Origin: an uncultured Clostridia bacterium
GTDB taxonomy: Bacteria; Bacillota; Clostridia; TANB77; CAG-508
DNA length: 64,000 nt
Direction of reading: 5' to 3'
Assembly: GCA_947626605.1 (NCBI GenBank)
Contig: CANQSV010000001.1
Location: forward strand, 107,018 to 171,017
The notes beneath the pieces are model-generated. The model did no database searches and had not been told where the DNA came from. It saw only the letters and a program-made list of their open reading frames with translations. Both the position numbers and the translations under genes were made by a program. The first letter of the stretch is position 1. Every line of letters begins with the position of its first letter. Positions 2,690-11,422 of this stretch are shown piece after piece.

Positions 2690-2757
2690 AAAAAAACCTC
2701 CTACTTTATTTGCTATATATTATGCAAACTAAGTAGGTGGTGTGTTAATTTGAGTGT

Positions 2758-4461
2758 TTATTTTACAAATTCTTCTCTTTTCATTTTTATTGTTGTTGGT
2801 CTTCCATGTGGACAAGTGTATGGGTTTTGCAATTTTAATAAATTTTGTATTAGTATATCTACTTCTTCTCTTTTTAAATCCATATTAGCTTTTACTGCTG
2901 CTTTACATGCTACAGTTGCAATAAATCTGTCTTCTATATCTTTTATTTGACTTCTTGAATCATTCAACATTTCATCAAGTATATCTAAAAACATATCTTT
3001 TCTATTAGTTTTTTCTCTATATTCTATATCTGGTACACCATTTATTTTGATAGTGTTCTCTCCAAAAAATTCTATATCATAACCAATCTTTTTTAGTAAT
3101 TCTTCATTATTTTTTATAAATTCAATTTCTCTATGTGTTAAATTAATAACTTCAGGAACAAGCATCATTTGGCTATTACTTTGATTATTCTTTTTATAGT
3201 TGTCCTTTATCTGCTCATATAAAACTCTTTCATGTGCTGCATGTTGATCTATTAAATATATTTCATTTTCTACCTGTATTATAATATATGTTTTGAAAGC
3301 AATTCCTATATATGTATATTTTACTTCTCTTTTATTTTCTCTTTTTATTAAATCTTTTTCTTCTTGATTATTTTCTAAACTCTCATTTTGATTTGTATGA
3401 TTGTTTGCAAAATTATATTCATTTAAAATATAATTTTCTTTTTCTTTAGATATTTCTTCGTTTCCTAGAAATTTTTCATTTAGAATTGAATTTTTTATTG
3501 CACTATATACTACTCTATGTAATTCTTCTTCATTTTTAAATCTAACTTCCATTTTAGTTGGATGAACATTTACATCATAATAATTTGCTGGCATTTCAAT
3601 ATTAAGTATGAAAAAACCATACATACCAATTCCTGTGCTTCCTTTAAAGGCCTGATCTGCACTGTTTGTTATTATTGCATTTTTTATATTTCTTTTATTT
3701 AAGAATACTATTTGATTTTTTCTACTATCTTTAGCAATTCGCGTATTACCAATAACTCCTGTTATTCTTATATTTTCTTCTTTATAATCAACATCAATTA
3801 TATTATCTGCTATTTCTTTTCCATACAACGTATATATAATGTCTTTTATGTTTCCATTTCCATTTGATTGAAATATATTTTTTCCATCATTTATTAGTTT
3901 AAAAGAAATACTTGGATTTGCTAGTGCTACCTTTTGTATCCATTCTTTTATGTATCTAAATTCTGTTGCATCTTGCTTTAAAAATTTATATCTAACAGGT
4001 GTGTTAAAGAATAAATTTTCTACAGTTATAGTGGTTCCTGTTTTAGCTCCAACCTCTTCTCTACTTAAAATATCTCCTGCTTCTGCCTCTATTTTTATTC
4101 CAAAATCTTGATTTGCAGTTTTTGATATCATTGTTAATTTTGATATTGCTACAATACTTGCTAAAGCTTCTCCTCTAAAACCCATTGAGTATATTTTTTC
4201 TAGATCTTCTACCTGTTTTATTTTACTTGTAGCATGTCTCTCTAAAGAAATAAACATTTCGTCAGCTTCTATTCCTTTTCCGTTATCTACGACTTTTATT
4301 AAAGACTTTCCACCTTTTTTTATTTCAACTATTATATTAGTAGCTCCAGCATCTATTGAATTCTCTACTAACTCTTTAACAACATTAGCTGGTCTTTCAA
4401 TTACCTCACCAGCCGCCATTTTATTAATTGTTAAATCATCTAAGATGACAATATTCCCCAT
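2758..4461 (-). CDS. mutL: DNA mismatch repair protein MutL
   Basis: GHKL motifs: IAAGEV-like MAAGEVIERPANVVKELVENSIDAGA, VVDNGKGI, GFRGEALASI; C-terminal DQHAAHER. Confidence 0.95.
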   Translation of the reverse strand: MGNIVILDDLTINKMAAGEVIERPANVVKELVENSIDAGATNIIVEIKKGGKSLIKVVDNGKGIEADEMFISLERHATSKIKQVEDLEKIYSMGFRGEALASIVAISKLTMISKTANQDFGIKIEAEAGDILSREEVGAKTGTTITVENLFFNTPVRYKFLKQDATEFRYIKEWIQKVALANPSISFKLINDGKNIFQSNGNGNIKDIIYTLYGKEIADNIIDVDYKEENIRITGVIGNTRIAKDSRKNQIVFLNKRNIKNAIITNSADQAFKGSTGIGMYGFFILNIEMPANYYDVNVHPTKMEVRFKNEEELHRVVYSAIKNSILNEKFLGNEEISKEKENYILNEYNFANNHTNQNESLENNQEEKDLIKRENKREVKYTYIGIAFKTYIIIQVENEIYLIDQHAAHERVLYEQIKDNYKKNNQSNSQMMLVPEVINLTHREIEFIKNNEELLKKIGYDIEFFGENTIKINGVPDIEYREKTNRKDMFLDILDEMLNDSRSQIKDIEDRFIATVACKAAVKANMDLKREEVDILIQNLLKLQNPYTCPHGRPTTIKMKREEFVK

Positions 4462-4476
4462 TATTATTCCCTTTCA

Positions 4477-4501
4477 TGTTATTTTTGGTAATTATATCAT
4501 T
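4477..4501. repeat. 25-bp perfect direct repeat, left copy, flanking MNT-HEPN cassette
   Basis: TGTTATTTTTGGTAATTATATCATT; identical copy at 5274-5298. Confidence 0.9.
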
Positions 4502-4514
4502 TATTATATATATA

Positions 4515-4892
4515 TTATTCTACTAATATTAAAAGCTCTTCTGCTGTTTTTATTTGTTGCTCTGTTTCTTCAGGTTTTACAATAAATTCATCATCATAAT
4601 CAGAATCTTCCCTTACTGTAGTTGCTTCTGCAATTTTATGCCCCATTTTTTTAGGAAAAATCTCTGTATTTACATAGTTTTTATTAAAATAAGCAATTAC
4701 ATCTTTATGTCTTTTAAAATCTATTGGCTCTAATGCTAAAATTGCCTTTATACTATGGAAAATAGAATAATATGCCCTATTATTCGCTGATTTATAGAAT
4801 TTTGCTTTATAAAGCATTTTACTTGCTTCTAAATCTTCTTTAGCTTGTTCTATTCTATGTTTTGACAATTCTTTTGATATTTTAGGACTCAC
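4515..4892 (-). CDS. HEPN domain protein (paired with MNT nucleotidyltransferase)
   Basis: RIEQAKEDLEASKMLY...SANNRAYYSIFHSIKAIL, typical HEPN helices; overlaps the MNT ORF by 11 nt. Confidence 0.85.
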   Translation of the reverse strand: MSPKISKELSKHRIEQAKEDLEASKMLYKAKFYKSANNRAYYSIFHSIKAILALEPIDFKRHKDVIAYFNKNYVNTEIFPKKMGHKIAEATTVREDSDYDDEFIVKPEETEQQIKTAEELLILVE

Positions 4893-5244
4893 TTAGTACC
4901 ACTCCTTCTCTTTGAACATTCATATAAAATGGTAATGCCTCTAACCAATAATTAAATTTATCTATATTTTTTAATAATGGAGATATACTCGTTTCAAAAT
5001 TATTATTACACTCTACATCATAAGCCAAATGTGCAATTTCACTCCTATATTTTACTATTTCATCATCCATTAAATCTGTTAAAATCATTATATCAATATC
5101 TGAACTTTTGTTGAAATCTCCTCTTGCATATGAACCATATAATATTATTTTTTTTACTCTTTTATCTAAAATTTGATTAACTCCAGTTATAAATTCATTA
5201 ATAATATTGTTTATGTTCTCTGGTATATTTTCCATTATTTTCAC
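4882..5244 (-). CDS. MNT-type nucleotidyltransferase
   Basis: LYGSYARGDFNKSSDIDIMIL = GS-x-DxD NTase motif. Confidence 0.85.
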   Translation of the reverse strand: MKIMENIPENINNIINEFITGVNQILDKRVKKIILYGSYARGDFNKSSDIDIMILTDLMDDEIVKYRSEIAHLAYDVECNNNFETSISPLLKNIDKFNYWLEALPFYMNVQREGVVLSES

Positions 5245-5273
5245 ACTCCCCTCTTGATTTATGATACATATAT

Positions 5274-5298
5274 TGTTATTTTTGGTAATTATATCATT
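5274..5298. repeat. 25-bp perfect direct repeat, right copy, flanking MNT-HEPN cassette
   Basis: TGTTATTTTTGGTAATTATATCATT; identical to 4477-4501. Confidence 0.9.
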
Positions 5299-5337
5299 AT
5301 TCCTATTTTTTTTGCAAACCTTTTATTTTTTTAATTT

Positions 5338-6114
5338 TTATCCAAAAGCTATATCTAATATCATCATAATAACAAAACCTATTGCAACACCTATTGTTCC
5401 AAGATTTGAATGTTCTCCCTCCTGTAAAGATGGGATTAGTTCTTCTACTACAACATAGATCATGGCTCCTGCCGCTAAAGCCAATAAATATGGTAATATC
5501 GGAACAACTAAACTTGTGAGTAATATTGTGATAACTGCTGCTATTGGTTCCACAATTCCAGATAGAACTCCATATATAAAAGCCTTTGTCTTTGAAGTTC
5601 CTTCACTTTTTAATGGCAATGAAATGATTGCACCCTCTGGAAAATTTTGAATTGCAATACCAATAGCTAACACTAAAGCACCTGCAATTGTTATTCCTGT
5701 ATTTCCTATAATAGAACCTGCTAAAGTTACTCCTAAAGCCATTCCCTCTGGAATATTATGCAAAGTTACTGCCAAAACCATCATTGTTGTCTTTTTCAAT
5801 TTTGCTTTGATTCCTTCGGGTTTATCACCTTTTATATGTAAGTGAGGAATTAAACTATCTAAAGTTAATAAAAAAACAATTCCTAGTAAAAATCCTATAC
5901 TTGCAGGTAACCAAGCAATTATTTTTTGTTCTTCTGCCATATCAATTGAAGGTAGCATAAGTGACCATATTGAAGCTGCAATCATTACACCAGAAGCAAA
6001 CCCTAATAATAACTTTTCTATCTTCACGTTTATTTTATCTTTCATAAAAAATACCATTCCAGAACCTATGGCTGTTCCTAAAAATGGTATTAGTAGTATT
6101 ATTAAAACTTGCAT
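5338..6114 (-). CDS. ZIP family metal (zinc) transporter
   Basis: HNIPEGMALGV and NFPEGAIISLPL metal-binding TM motifs; multi-pass. Confidence 0.9.
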   Translation of the reverse strand: MQVLIILLIPFLGTAIGSGMVFFMKDKINVKIEKLLLGFASGVMIAASIWSLMLPSIDMAEEQKIIAWLPASIGFLLGIVFLLTLDSLIPHLHIKGDKPEGIKAKLKKTTMMVLAVTLHNIPEGMALGVTLAGSIIGNTGITIAGALVLAIGIAIQNFPEGAIISLPLKSEGTSKTKAFIYGVLSGIVEPIAAVITILLTSLVVPILPYLLALAAGAMIYVVVEELIPSLQEGEHSNLGTIGVAIGFVIMMILDIAFG

Positions 6115-6137
6115 TGCTTCACCTCTATTTTTTTATA

Positions 6138-6569
6138 TTATCTTTTATTTAATATATCTTCAATTGTATGCCATGCTAAAAGAGCACATTTTACTCTAGC
6201 TGGCATATGAGATACGTTTCTAAAAGCAATAGCATCTTCTAATTTTTTCAAATTTTCTTCATCTGTTTCTTCTCTTTTTATCATATCAATAAAAGTTTTT
6301 ATAATCTCTTTTGCTTCCTCTATTGTTTTTCCTTTTAATGTATCTATCATTATAGAGGTAGATGCCTGTGATATAGCACAACCGTGTCCTGAAAAAGCCA
6401 TATCTTTAATAACATTTCCATCTAATTTAATTTCTAATGTTATTTCATCTCCACAATTAGGATTGTGCCCTATTTCAGAATAATCTGGATTTTCTAATTT
6501 CTTTTTATTATATGAATTCATGCTATGCTCCATAATAAGCTCATTATAAACATCATTTAATTCATCCAT
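6138..6569 (-). CDS. sufU: SufU-type Fe-S assembly protein
   Basis: NPNCGDEITL, GHGCAISQASTSIMID, RVKCALLAWHT cysteine motifs. Confidence 0.93.
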   Translation of the reverse strand: MDELNDVYNELIMEHSMNSYNKKKLENPDYSEIGHNPNCGDEITLEIKLDGNVIKDMAFSGHGCAISQASTSIMIDTLKGKTIEEAKEIIKTFIDMIKREETDEENLKKLEDAIAFRNVSHMPARVKCALLAWHTIEDILNKR

Positions 6570-6609
6570 ATTGTTTTAATTAGCATTAATATAGCTAATA
6601 TCTCCTTTC

Positions 6610-7833
6610 CTATTTTTTTATATATTTTTCAAACATACTATATGCTTTTTTCAAACCTTTAACCAATCTATCAACATCATCTTTTGTATTATAAATATAG
6701 AAACTAGCTCTACATGTAGAATCTATTCCTAAGAATCTCATCAAAGGCTGTGCACAATGATTGCCAGAACGAACACAAACACCTTCTCCATCTAATATAC
6801 TTGCAACATCATGTGGATGTACTCCTTTTATATTAAAAGAAATAACACTAGAATGATTTTCTTTATTTTTAGTTAAATACAAATCTAAATAATCTAATTT
6901 TGATAATTCTTCTACTGCATAAGAAACTACTTCTTTCTCAATTTTTTGAATATTGTCATAACCGATTTTTTCTATATAATCCATTGCTGCACCTAAACCT
7001 ATTACACCTTCTACATTTTGAGTACCCGCTTCAAATTTATTAGGAAGAGGTGCAAAAGTAGTATCCTGTTCATAAACATATTCTATCATATCTCCTCCCA
7101 TTAAGAAAGGACTCATACTATTTAAAATTTCTTTTTTACCATATAATACACCTATTCCTAGAGGAGCTAGCATTTTATGTCCTGAGAAAATTAGGAAATC
7201 AGCATCTAAAGCTTGTACATCAATTCTCATATGAGGAATACTTTGAGATGCATCTACAATAACTACTGCACCTTTCTTATGTGCATAATCAATTATTTTC
7301 TTCACATTATTAATAGTTCCCAAAGCATTAGAAACATGCGTAATTCCAACAATCTTAGTTTTATCTGTAATTTTATTCTCTATTTCTTCATCATCAATTT
7401 CAAAATTTTCATTTATATACATATAGCTCAATTTACTTCCAGTAGCCTTTGTTACATTTTGCCATGGAACTAAATTAGAATGATGCTCCATTATAGAAAT
7501 TACAATCTCATCATCTTGTTTAACATTACTCATTCCATAAGAATATGCAATTAAATTTAAGCTCTCTGTTGCATTTTTAGAAAAAATAATCTCTTCTCTA
7601 CTTTTTGCATTTATAAACTTTGCAATTTTAGTTCTAACATTTTCATACTCTTCTGTTGCTTCAATACTCAAAGAATACGCCCCTCTATGAGGATTAGCAT
7701 TATATCTATTATAAAAATCCTCAATTGCATTTATTACTTGAAAAGGCTTTTGAGTAGTAGCCCCACTATCTAAATATGAAATTTTTCTATTTTCTAAAAT
7801 TGGAAAATCTTTTTTTATTTCTTCTGCGTTCAA
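6610..7833 (-). CDS. sufS: Cysteine desulfurase SufS
   Basis: PLP fold: YLDSGATTQKP, EHHSNLVPWQ, DFLIFSGHKMLAPLGIGVLYG, CVRSGNHCAQPL. Track start is 7875; a TTG at 7833 after GGAGGAG gives a more typical N-terminus (NAEEIKKDFPIL). Confidence 0.9.
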   Translation of the reverse strand: MNAEEIKKDFPILENRKISYLDSGATTQKPFQVINAIEDFYNRYNANPHRGAYSLSIEATEEYENVRTKIAKFINAKSREEIIFSKNATESLNLIAYSYGMSNVKQDDEIVISIMEHHSNLVPWQNVTKATGSKLSYMYINENFEIDDEEIENKITDKTKIVGITHVSNALGTINNVKKIIDYAHKKGAVVIVDASQSIPHMRIDVQALDADFLIFSGHKMLAPLGIGVLYGKKEILNSMSPFLMGGDMIEYVYEQDTTFAPLPNKFEAGTQNVEGVIGLGAAMDYIEKIGYDNIQKIEKEVVSYAVEELSKLDYLDLYLTKNKENHSSVISFNIKGVHPHDVASILDGEGVCVRSGNHCAQPLMRFLGIDSTCRASFYIYNTKDDVDRLVKGLKKAYSMFEKYIKK

Positions 7834-7893
7834 AACTCTCTCCTCCATCGTTTGTGCAATGCTTTCGCATTGCAATTAATAATTAACTTTTTT

Positions 7894-8009
7894 AACATCT
7901 CTACTGTTCTTGTATGCACGGGTCGTCGGTGCTGAGGCTGTTAAGGCTCTGCCTGTTGTAGGGGCTGGCGTCCTCGACAGCCCGTAAAAATATTAACCGT
8001 AGAGATGTT
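7894..8009. repeat. Palindromic intergenic repeat, family B copy 1
   Basis: Outer inverted repeat AACATCTCTAC/GTAGAGATGTT; inner CGGGTCGTCGGTGCTGAGGCTGTTAAGGCTCTGCCTGTTGTAGGGGCTGGCGTCCTCGACAGCCCG; related to 37621-37695 and 41806-41859. Confidence 0.75.
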
Positions 8010-8019
8010 TTTTCATACA

Positions 8020-8060
8020 AATATTATATTATTTTAAGCGAGCGAAAATAATATAATATT
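8020..8060. repeat. Minimal (core-less) family A palindrome, copy A4
   Basis: Perfect 16-bp inverted repeat AATATTATATTATTTT/AAAATAATATAATATT around AAGCGAGCG. Confidence 0.6.
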
Positions 8061-8083
8061 AAGGTTGGATGAATACACAAACA

Positions 8084-9148
8084 TTAATCCAAAATCTTAT
8101 CAATAGAATCTAAAATTTCATTTTTCAAATCCTCATTCTTAATATTATCTAATATTTTATTAAACTTAGCTCTTACCATAAGCTTCATTGCCTCTTTTAA
8201 TTCAAACCCTCTACTCATGATATAGAAAAGTTCTTTTTCTCCTACTTTTCCAGCTGAACTACTATGATTGCCTTCCACATCTTCTTCTGAACACAAAAGC
8301 ATTGGCAATGCTAAAGATTTAGCTGTATCTGACAACAACATGCAAGCTTCATTCTCATTACCTGTTGCTTTCTTACAACCTTTTTTAAAATCTATTGTAC
8401 CCTTAAAATGTTTTTTTGCATTATCCTTTAAAGCTCCCTGTACTTCAATATCTATATTAGATTTTTTTCCTCTTAACTCTCCTATATAATTCAAATCAAA
8501 TAATTGATTGTCCTTACCTAAATATATTGTACTTAACTTATTATCTGATAACTCTCCCTCTAAATCTGAAAAGTAATTTGTTATACTATTTTTTCCTCCA
8601 AAATCCACTATTGTATAGTTAACTTTTGACTCATCCTCAACCTTATTCTCTATACTCATAAAATTATTTGATGATTCATTCATTAAATTAGCTACAATGA
8701 TATTAACCTTAGAATTCTTCTTTGCTAATAATCTAATTACACCATTGTGAAAAGCTTGTATATTTTTCTCTGTTACATACTTTAGAATTACAGTTCCTTT
8801 TGCCTGTTCTTCAGCTACAATCTCAATATTATCAATTAAATCATTATTTTCTTTATCAAATTTAAAATCTATCTCTATCTCTTTATTCAATTTTTTATCA
8901 ATAACAATTTTAATTTTTTTATTAGCATTATTAGAAACTTGATTAGTAAAGAAATCTCCTAAGCCATATGTTAAATTTAATTTTGTATTTTGATTATCAA
9001 TTATTACTTTAGATTCATCACCATACACTTGCATATTATTAAAATTATTTATCTCTTGTGGTATTGATATATTTTCTAATTTAATATTATTAATATTAAA
9101 GTTTCTTGAAGTCCTTACAGGAGTTTCGTTTAATTTTAATAGTTCCAT
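8084..9148 (-). CDS. sufD: Fe-S assembly protein SufD
   Basis: SufBD family: ...FKGTIDFKKGCKKATGNENEACMLLSD...EDVEGNHSSSAGKVGEKELFYIMSRG; ATG at 9148 preceded by GAAAGGAT SD (track start 9196). Confidence 0.92.
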   Translation of the reverse strand: MELLKLNETPVRTSRNFNINNIKLENISIPQEINNFNNMQVYGDESKVIIDNQNTKLNLTYGLGDFFTNQVSNNANKKIKIVIDKKLNKEIEIDFKFDKENNDLIDNIEIVAEEQAKGTVILKYVTEKNIQAFHNGVIRLLAKKNSKVNIIVANLMNESSNNFMSIENKVEDESKVNYTIVDFGGKNSITNYFSDLEGELSDNKLSTIYLGKDNQLFDLNYIGELRGKKSNIDIEVQGALKDNAKKHFKGTIDFKKGCKKATGNENEACMLLSDTAKSLALPMLLCSEEDVEGNHSSSAGKVGEKELFYIMSRGFELKEAMKLMVRAKFNKILDNIKNEDLKNEILDSIDKILD

Positions 9149-9231
9149 TCTTATTATCCTTTCAATTAGATAAAAAATTGCCTTGCAATTTTTCACATTA
9201 ATTATTCATTATTCATTATTCATTACCTCTA

Positions 9232-10632
9232 TTACCCAATGGCTCCATCCAATTCTAAATTAATAAGATTATTCATCTCTACTGCATATTCTACTGGTAA
9301 TTCTTTCGAAATTGGATATGCAAATCCTCTTACTATCATTGCTTTTGCATCCTCTTCTGATAACCCTCTACTCATCAAATAGAAAATTGTTTTGTCACTT
9401 ATTTTTCCAATCTTAGCTTCATGAGAAAATTCAACTTCATCTGTTCTTATATCATTTACTGGAATTGTATCAGAAATTGAAATGTCATCTAACATAAGAG
9501 ATTCACAAGATACAGATGATTTGGAATTCTTAGCTTTTTCATTTATTCTAACTAAAGATCTATAAGTACACTTTCCTCCATTTTTAGAAATTGACTTTGC
9601 ATTTACTAAACTTGATGTGTTTTCTGCATTATGCACTACTTTAAAACCATTATCTAGATTTTGTCCTTTACCTGCAAAAGAAATTCCTGTGTACTCAGTT
9701 TTAGCCCCTTCACCATTTAAAATACTCATAGGATACAACATTGATATTTTTGATCCAAAAGAACCTGTTACCCAATCTACTTGTGCATTTTTACCTACTA
9801 TTGCTTTTTTAGTATTTAAATTTAACATATTCTTTGACCAATTTTCTATTGTTGAATATCTTAAATATGCATTATCTTTTACATATAACTCAACACACCC
9901 AGCATGTAAATTTACTTTATTATATTTTGGAGCACTACATCCTTCTATAAAATGCAAACTTGCTCCTTCATCAACAATTATTAAAGTATGTTCAAATTGT
10001 CCTGATTCTGGTGAATTCAATCTAAAATAAGATTGAAGCGGAATATCTACTTTTACTCCTTTAGGTACATATACAAAAGAACCTCCAGACCATACAGCTC
10101 CATGTAAAGCAACAAATTTATGATCATTAACAGGAACACATTTCATAAAATGGTCTCGAACTAAATCTGGATATTCTCTTACAGCTGTTTCCATATCAGT
10201 ATATACAACACCTTGCTTTATAAGGTCTTCTTTCATACTGTGATATACTACCTCTGAATCATACTGTGCCCCTACACCTGCCAAAGATTTCTTTTCAGCT
10301 TCTGGGATACCCAACTTATCAAAAGTACTTTTAATATCTTCTGGTACATCTTCCCAAGAATTACTCAAACCAGTTTTAGGTCTTACATATGTTGCAATCT
10401 CATCCATATTAAGTTCTGAAATATCAGGTCCCCATGTTGGAAGCTCTAATTTATTGTAGACATCTAGAGCCTTTAATCTAAATTCTCTCATCCAATCAGG
10501 ATCATTTTTTTGTTTTGATATTTCTTCGATAATCTCTTTAGTTAAACCTTTTTTTATCTTAAAATCATATTCATCTTTATTTTTTATATCGTAAATATTT
10601 CTATTTATCTCTTCTAACTTTGTTTTTGCCAT
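9232..10632 (-). CDS. sufB: Fe-S assembly protein SufB
   Basis: HAAVWSGGSFVYVPKGV-like HGAVWSGGSFVYVPKGV, EGCSAPKY, KIGKISDKTIFYLMSRGL. Confidence 0.95.
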   Translation of the reverse strand: MAKTKLEEINRNIYDIKNKDEYDFKIKKGLTKEIIEEISKQKNDPDWMREFRLKALDVYNKLELPTWGPDISELNMDEIATYVRPKTGLSNSWEDVPEDIKSTFDKLGIPEAEKKSLAGVGAQYDSEVVYHSMKEDLIKQGVVYTDMETAVREYPDLVRDHFMKCVPVNDHKFVALHGAVWSGGSFVYVPKGVKVDIPLQSYFRLNSPESGQFEHTLIIVDEGASLHFIEGCSAPKYNKVNLHAGCVELYVKDNAYLRYSTIENWSKNMLNLNTKKAIVGKNAQVDWVTGSFGSKISMLYPMSILNGEGAKTEYTGISFAGKGQNLDNGFKVVHNAENTSSLVNAKSISKNGGKCTYRSLVRINEKAKNSKSSVSCESLMLDDISISDTIPVNDIRTDEVEFSHEAKIGKISDKTIFYLMSRGLSEEDAKAMIVRGFAYPISKELPVEYAVEMNNLINLELDGAIG

Positions 10633-10690
10633 CTTGCTATCCTTTCAGTTAAATTTTATTACAATAGTCAAACCTCTTGATTCCACTGTA

Positions 10691-11422
10691 TTAATTTTTA
10701 TACTTACTATATCCATTCTCTTCAATTTCTTTTGCCAATTCTTGAGTTCCTGTTTTAACAATCTTTCCATTAACTAACACATGCACATAATCAACTTTTA
10801 AACTATGCAAAATTTTAGTATTATGAGTAATTATAAGAACTGCATTATTTTCATTTTTAAACATTTCTATTCCTTTAGATACTGTTTTTATCGCATCTAC
10901 ATCTAATCCCGAATCAGTTTCATCTAATATTGCAAGTTTTGGATTTAAAACAAGCATTTGAAGAATTTCGTTTTTCTTTTTTTCTCCTCCAGAAAAGCCT
11001 ACATTTAAACTTCTTTCCATATACTTAGGATTCATGTTTAATTCTTCCATATATTTTTTTAATTCTTCTTTGAAAGAAAATATCTTTACAGGTTCGCCTG
11101 TTACTTTATTTTTAGCATACTTCAAAAAATTTGTAACAGAAACTCCTGGTATTTCTTCTGGTAATTGGAAAGACATAAAAACACCTTTTCTTGCGATTTC
11201 ATCAGTCTTTTCGTTAGTAATATCTTGTCCATCAAAAATAATGTTTCCTCCAATTTTTGTATAAGCAGGATTATTCAAAATTGCATTTGCTGTTGTAGTT
11301 TTTCCAGAACCATTTGGTCCCATTATTACATGAATCTCTCCTTTATTTATTTTTAGATTAATACCTTTTAAAATTTCTTTATCTTCTGCATTTACACACA
11401 AATCATTAATCTCTAATAGCAT
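10691..11422 (-). CDS. sufC: Fe-S assembly ATPase SufC
   Basis: GPNGSGKTTTANAILNNP, SVGFSGGEKKKNEILQML, LAILDETDSGLDVDAIK. Confidence 0.95.
   Translation of the reverse strand: MLLEINDLCVNAEDKEILKGINLKINKGEIHVIMGPNGSGKTTTANAILNNPAYTKIGGNIIFDGQDITNEKTDEIARKGVFMSFQLPEEIPGVSVTNFLKYAKNKVTGEPVKIFSFKEELKKYMEELNMNPKYMERSLNVGFSGGEKKKNEILQMLVLNPKLAILDETDSGLDVDAIKTVSKGIEMFKNENNAVLIITHNTKILHSLKVDYVHVLVNGKIVKTGTQELAKEIEENGYSKYKN

Follow-up and report, generated by a model that had tools for sequence, protein, structure and literature searches.

A probable MNT-HEPN insertion with a 25-bp target duplication between a ZIP transporter gene and mutL, and repeat-flanked counterparts in related uncultured Clostridia

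The main conclusion of this study is that the window—the whole 64,000-nucleotide stretch of DNA from an uncultured Clostridia bacterium analyzed here—very probably contains a recent insertion of a self-standing MNT-HEPN gene pair between a ZIP transporter gene and mutL, which entered with duplication of 25 bp of target DNA by a host-encoded or trans-acting illegitimate process. We put the probability of this reading at roughly 0.83. Sequence comparison directly shows an insert, duplicated target DNA, an empty site in the congener G001, and the same signature with other repeats elsewhere. This bears on the old question of how chromosomal toxin-antitoxin (TA) pairs that have no visible transposase come to occupy new sites, and the seven repeat-flanked sites of one cassette family described below allow junctions, repeat lengths, and neighbors to be studied as a set.

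A search of the window returned two exact copies of the 25-mer TGTTATTTTTGGTAATTATATCATT, at 4477-4501 and 5274-5298, as the original prediction had claimed. No third copy with up to three mismatches occurs in the window (0 expected in shuffles), nor any further copy at that threshold across the whole 1.67-Mb genome (G000). It also proved correct that the two copies enclose MNT and HEPN between mutL and the ZIP gene, all on the minus strand. The upstream copy (5274..5298, minus strand; coding strand 5' AATGATATAATTACCAAAAATAACA 3') lies 29 bp before the annotated GTG start of MNT (4882-5244), and the stop codon of HEPN (4515-4892) lies 13 bp before the downstream copy (4477..4501, minus strand), which lies just before mutL (2758..4461, minus strand; 567 aa, confirmed as MutL by Pfam). 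The upstream neighbor, a Pfam-confirmed ZIP-family metal transporter gene, occupies 5338..6114 on the same (minus) strand as the insert. The insert itself is 772 bp long (4502..5273, minus strand) and consists of a short leader without a full promoter, MNT, and HEPN, and nothing else. Its ORFs and Pfam matches include no transposase or integrase gene, and its ends are not joined by terminal inverted repeats.

That these repeats mark an insertion is supported by the one other genome of the genus compared, G001, in which the MutL protein is 99% identical to that of the window. The 25-mer occurs exactly once in G001, at the ZIP-mutL junction (G001:C4:150898-150922), where the 772-bp insert is missing, and the window HEPN has no match in that genome. 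When joined over one 25-mer, the window flanks give the G001 sequence, unbroken and base for base, with about 98.5-98.9% flank identity on each side. The earlier proposals that the pair was inserted with duplication at the mutL promoter, and that a close relative devoid of the pair would keep a single 25-mer, are thus supported by a precise empty site. G001 represents either the state before insertion or that after excision, excision between the repeats being possible. Indeed, if the filled site were ancestral and recombination or slippage between the 25-bp repeats had removed the cassette from G001, exactly the G001 sequence would result, and no outgroup was found at the mutL site. We nevertheless regard this scenario as unlikely: the repeats are perfect, hence the duplication is probably young; two of the four matching related genomes are empty at a second site, with 79-bp repeats, discussed below; and among the other cassette loci examined a mutL homologue is nearby only in L086, at a different site. 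Moreover, even if G001 did lose the cassette, the duplication needs an insertion at some time. An assembly artefact or chance repeats would be an extremely improbable explanation. Although the window was taken from a single assembly, which has 62 contigs, a perfect 25-bp repeat has zero matches expected, the empty site is seamless in the independent G001 assembly, and the 79-bp case is present in two assemblies (L046 and L047).

The indels of the two congeners were compared in one contig pair (G000 C1 vs. G001 C4, about 205 kb each), and among those listed a long target duplication is found only at the MNT-HEPN insert. Many insertions of 100-150 bp also differ between these contigs; in several cases they are REP- or MITE-like, and several contain a GTAGGGGCGACCAGTGGTCGCCC-like palindrome. 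The segment of the window from 2755 to 11258 (mutL, ZIP, and genes to about 11 kb) is 98-99% identical to G001 (L009), compared with about 91% for several other blocks, which suggests that the mutL-ZIP block may have been exchanged recently between the congeners. Besides the 567-aa type, both genomes encode another, longer MutL homologue (about 923 aa); that of G000 (C1:40114-42843) has a long acidic low-complexity linker.

A second finding is that related uncultured gut Clostridia carry homologous MNT-HEPN cassettes at many unrelated sites, and that several of these cassettes are flanked by direct repeats of their own. HEPN homologues occur in 58 of the 195 genomes of the family, in 24 of 39 genera, and we collected 80 cassette loci from assemblies named as uncultured Clostridia, Clostridiaceae, Clostridium, or Eubacteriales. 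Cassettes can be up to 97% identical in surroundings that differ (L051 and L053), and therefore the MNT-HEPN pair moves. Comparing the DNA before MNT with the DNA after HEPN identified site-specific direct repeats in L046/L047 (79 bp), L059 (44 bp), L093 (22 bp), L102 (126 bp), and L118 (67 bp), as well as in L116, where a 22-bp repeat with one mismatch abuts the cassette border defined by comparison with L091 and L098. The repeats at the window and these six other sites thus measure 22, 22, 25, 44, 67, 79, and 126 bp, and their sequences are unrelated. Since other cassettes have different, site-specific repeats, the 25-mer is best read as duplicated target DNA. The possibility that the same 25-mer would surround other cassettes was not borne out, as it is absent elsewhere in G000 and G001, and a fixed attachment site is rejected for the same reasons. 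Chance is a very unlikely explanation for the repeats as a group. With one locus taken per near-identical group, an exact 20-mer common to both sides of the cassette is found in 6 of 70 loci, compared with 28 of 8741 controls (0.3%) placed in the same geometry within the same DNA (binomial P about 1e-7; within-locus permutation 0/20,000). These six include L054, which is outside our strict set because its repeat lies within another tandem array, and the strict set includes L116 despite its having no exact 20-mer. L054, L074, L108, and L120 are repeat-flanked by score and are omitted from the strict set because of other tandem repeats or probable paralogous sequence. In about nine tenths of homologous cassettes, a flanking repeat is undetectable; either these cassettes are old and their repeats have eroded, or they arrived in another mode.

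What is duplicated differs from site to site. The L046 repeat carries a terminator-like hairpin and a promoter-like site, those of L059, L102, and L118 each carry a terminator-like hairpin, and the L102 repeat runs from within the 3' end of one gene into the first codons of the next. With terminators, promoters, or gene ends contained in the repeats, the neighbors stay intact. The idea that the duplicated piece is a promoter therefore does not hold for every site, since a terminator plus a promoter, or a gene end, can be duplicated instead. Likewise, the view that a repeat-bounded, promoter-duplicating cassette is the unusual part of this locus was only partly upheld: the repeats are real, but there are six further repeat-flanked sites, and the mode is known for restriction-modification genes.

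Several other loci deserve mention in their own right. G000 contains a second MNT-HEPN pair (L157; G000:C20, HEPN at C20:25707-26078) with an identical 33-bp sequence, AAACGTAGGGGAGACCAGTGGTCTCCCGTTTTT, on both sides, which looks REP-like rather than like a target duplication because comparable pieces are found at other places in these genomes. Another genome has an MNT-HEPN pair (L086, 5658-9386) that is followed, after about 550 bp, by a long mutL; a terminator-like stretch separates the two, and the site differs from that in the window. HEPN homologues without a detectable adjoining MNT match are found in L104, L106, and L109, and these could be lone toxins or have an MNT too diverged to detect. 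Finally, L083 (9381-11193) contains a different pair, with HEPN first (PF05168, E 2e-26; NTP_transf_2, E 1e-11) and a small protein, flanked by an exact 38-bp repeat, which forms the core of two divergent versions of an asparagine-synthase-like (asnB-like) 3' gene end. L083 may be an earlier instance of this type of insertion, which hints that duplication-type entry may be a property of HEPN-MNT pairs rather than of one subfamily.

Empty sites are not restricted to mutL. Four of the seven independent repeat-flanked sites have empty-site relatives, two of them precise; among the six further sites, single-copy relatives were found for three, one precise and two at 71-87% identity. The precise case is the 79-bp site of L046 and L047 (in G090 and G185), for which G198 and G197 each carry a single repeat copy without the cassette. 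The joined L046 flanks match across the junction in both genomes, at positions 2-660 of 660 in G198 (95%) and at 221-660 in G197 (98%). For the 44-bp site (L059, in G137), G175 and G093 show the same downstream gene preceded by a single diverged repeat copy, without MNT-HEPN; their sequences are diverged, with an upstream neighbor that is not the same. The junction of the 126-bp site (L102, in G279) is matched by G240 at 76% and by G167 at 71%. At L093, the congener G034 aligns on the downstream side only, and relatives of L118 keep the repeat with the upstream gene only. The 79-bp site is also informative about transfer. L046 and L047 show no difference over the 870 bp that span leader, cassette, tail, and downstream repeat, whereas the downstream flank differs by 4-7%, and the cassette therefore appears to have passed between species at one site. 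We give only a minor chance to a Campbell-type single crossover as the way in, whereby a small circle made of the cassette and one repeat, excised from the corresponding site in a different cell, would integrate by homologous recombination at the repeat. It would account for perfect repeats, for presence or absence at one site, and for the between-species passage seen in L046/L047. However, it leaves the first arrival unexplained, as the circle must already have the repeat of that site, and 25 bp of homology is short for RecA, being near or below the length that RecA uses efficiently. Furthermore, the identical L046/L047 tract continues 77 bp beyond the repeat, so that ordinary homologous recombination in flanking DNA suffices and fits equally well.

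How, then, did the cassette first arrive? We favor insertion by a host-encoded or trans-acting illegitimate process that would produce repeats of very different lengths. Three observations lead us to this view: the cassette encodes neither a transposase nor an integrase, its repeats have no constant length, and the family genomes examined lack Ku. Candidate routes would be template switching and the fill-in of a staggered break; both fit, the data favor neither one, and an enzyme acting in trans is also compatible. As a specific alternative, however, transposition or integration of the cassette as a non-autonomous passenger of an enzyme encoded elsewhere seems quite improbable to us. The 97%-identical cassettes in different contexts (L051/L053) show that movement is real, so that some enzyme could be responsible. 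Yet transposases make short duplications of fixed length and integrases use a fixed core, whereas the repeats here range from 22 to 126 bp, lack the constant short length of fixed-duplication transposons, and have a different sequence at every site. In addition, no shared terminal inverted repeats were seen by eye at the listed cassette ends, and the restriction of the 25-mer to the mutL site, together with the lack of an integrase gene, distinguishes this locus from integrase-mediated insertion at an attachment site. Canonical nonhomologous end joining is unlikely, as all 59 family genomes examined lack Ku (with a positive B. subtilis control), and retro-insertion of a transcript is not favored since other cassettes appear to have their own promoter. 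Carriage by phages or plasmids is not supported by close relatives either: there are no cassette homologues in 50,697 phage records, plasmid homologues are only about 30% identical, and two matches at 55% are in viral contigs. Returning to the illegitimate process that we favor, its products would persist because the duplication preserves the terminators, promoters, and gene ends of the neighbors, and also since losing an expressed TA pair would be costly. Very tentatively, HEPN-MNT pairs might themselves be mobile and enter one new site after another with long variable target duplications, perhaps through a break or template switch promoted by the toxin or its stress response.

The consequences for transcription of mutL are another aspect of this insertion. 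The original prediction held that each repeat could act as a promoter element, and this is partly true. TATAAT is found in both copies, but a full promoter-like site is found at the upstream copy only, because the best -35 falls outside the 25-bp repeat, on the ZIP side. That site (5288..5317, minus strand) combines TTGCAA at 5317-5312, an 18-bp spacer, and TATAAT with an extended TG, the extended -10 TGATATAAT being inside the upstream repeat; it is predicted from its match to the consensus. The second -10 (4491..4496, minus strand), which precedes mutL and is a product of the duplication, also has TATAAT and an extended TG, with no good -35 at the usual distance. In the empty site, the site at 5288..5317 would serve mutL, while in the window it precedes MNT-HEPN. 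We detected no terminator in the stretch from HEPN to mutL, hence mutL is likely to be transcribed by read-through from MNT-HEPN. The original mutL promoter would now transcribe MNT-HEPN first, and mutL would depend on read-through plus the duplicated extended -10. Insertion of a TA pair may thus reassign a promoter that already exists, in this case the one serving a mismatch-repair gene.

The proteins encoded by the insert are consistent with a TA pair. MNT (4882..5244, minus strand) is a nucleotidyltransferase of 120 aa from the GTG, with an in-frame ATG at 5235, which matches NTP_transf_2 (E 1e-11) and carries GSX10DXD, GSYARGDFNKSSDID, with invariant positions G34, S35, D46, and D48. Its bit score is 33, as against an NCBIfam MntA cut-off of 60 bits, and its best PADLOC model is PDC-S09. 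HEPN (4515..4892, minus strand), which overlaps MNT by 11 bp on the same strand, is a 125-aa protein of family PF05168 (E 9e-21) in which the motif RAYYSIFHSI corresponds to R39-X6-H46. The nearest solved structures by sequence are the HEPN and nucleotidyltransferase chains of PDB 9xbd. On the basis of these families, HEPN would be a putative RNase toxin and MNT its putative antitoxin, which would keep the RNase inactive as in other HEPN-MNT pairs. The HEPN stop is a TAA at a position where most relatives have a GAA codon; otherwise the frame would stop at the TGA at 4499-4497, within the downstream repeat. The HEPN stop codon is at or within the repeat in L059, L102, and L118 as well, and the cassette thus extends to the last codons of HEPN.

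Comparison with known systems highlights important similarities and differences. Like type VII HepT-MntA, the window has a two-gene operon encoding a minimal nucleotidyltransferase with GSX10DXD and a HEPN with a conserved R...H motif. Type VII further implies a toxic HEPN RNase that MNT neutralizes through nucleotidylation, a putative activity for the pair in the window. However, HEPN in type VII has RX4HXY with an acceptor tyrosine (PMC7641770, PMC11586414; motif definition in PMC11586414), while the window HEPN belongs to PF05168, has R-X6-H, and contains no HXY and thus no RX4HXY. A TA pair of Mycoplasma mycoides also lies between direct repeats, which were read as a recombination scar (PMC8562856). 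Like ours it is small, but it encodes an AAA-ATPase and a subtilisin-like protein, and the passages cited describe neither an empty-site comparison nor a target duplication. The closest parallel is with restriction-modification genes, for which insertion with long, variable target duplication is described (PMC3874152 section 7; PMC3031569; PMC1643837, with the primary reports, Nobusato et al. 2000, Gene 259:99, and Furuta et al. 2010, NAR 38:2428, taken from citing papers). In the passages cited, as in the window, host-addicting genes without a transposase lie between direct target repeats of variable length, and a related genome shows just one copy without the insert. Our sites have the features of this class, namely repeats with an empty relative, variation in repeat length and sequence, and neither a recombinase nor terminal inverted repeats. 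There are three differences. First, the cargo here is HEPN-MNT, whereas it is restriction-modification in every case described in those passages. Second, the host belongs to an uncultured Clostridia family, unlike in the restriction-modification cases. Third, our repeats are as short as 22-25 bp, while the review passage gives a figure on the order of 100 bp (PMC3874152). We found no report of long variable target duplication for HEPN-MNT in the literature searched, and the present sites would extend a mode of gene mobility described for restriction-modification systems to another addictive module.
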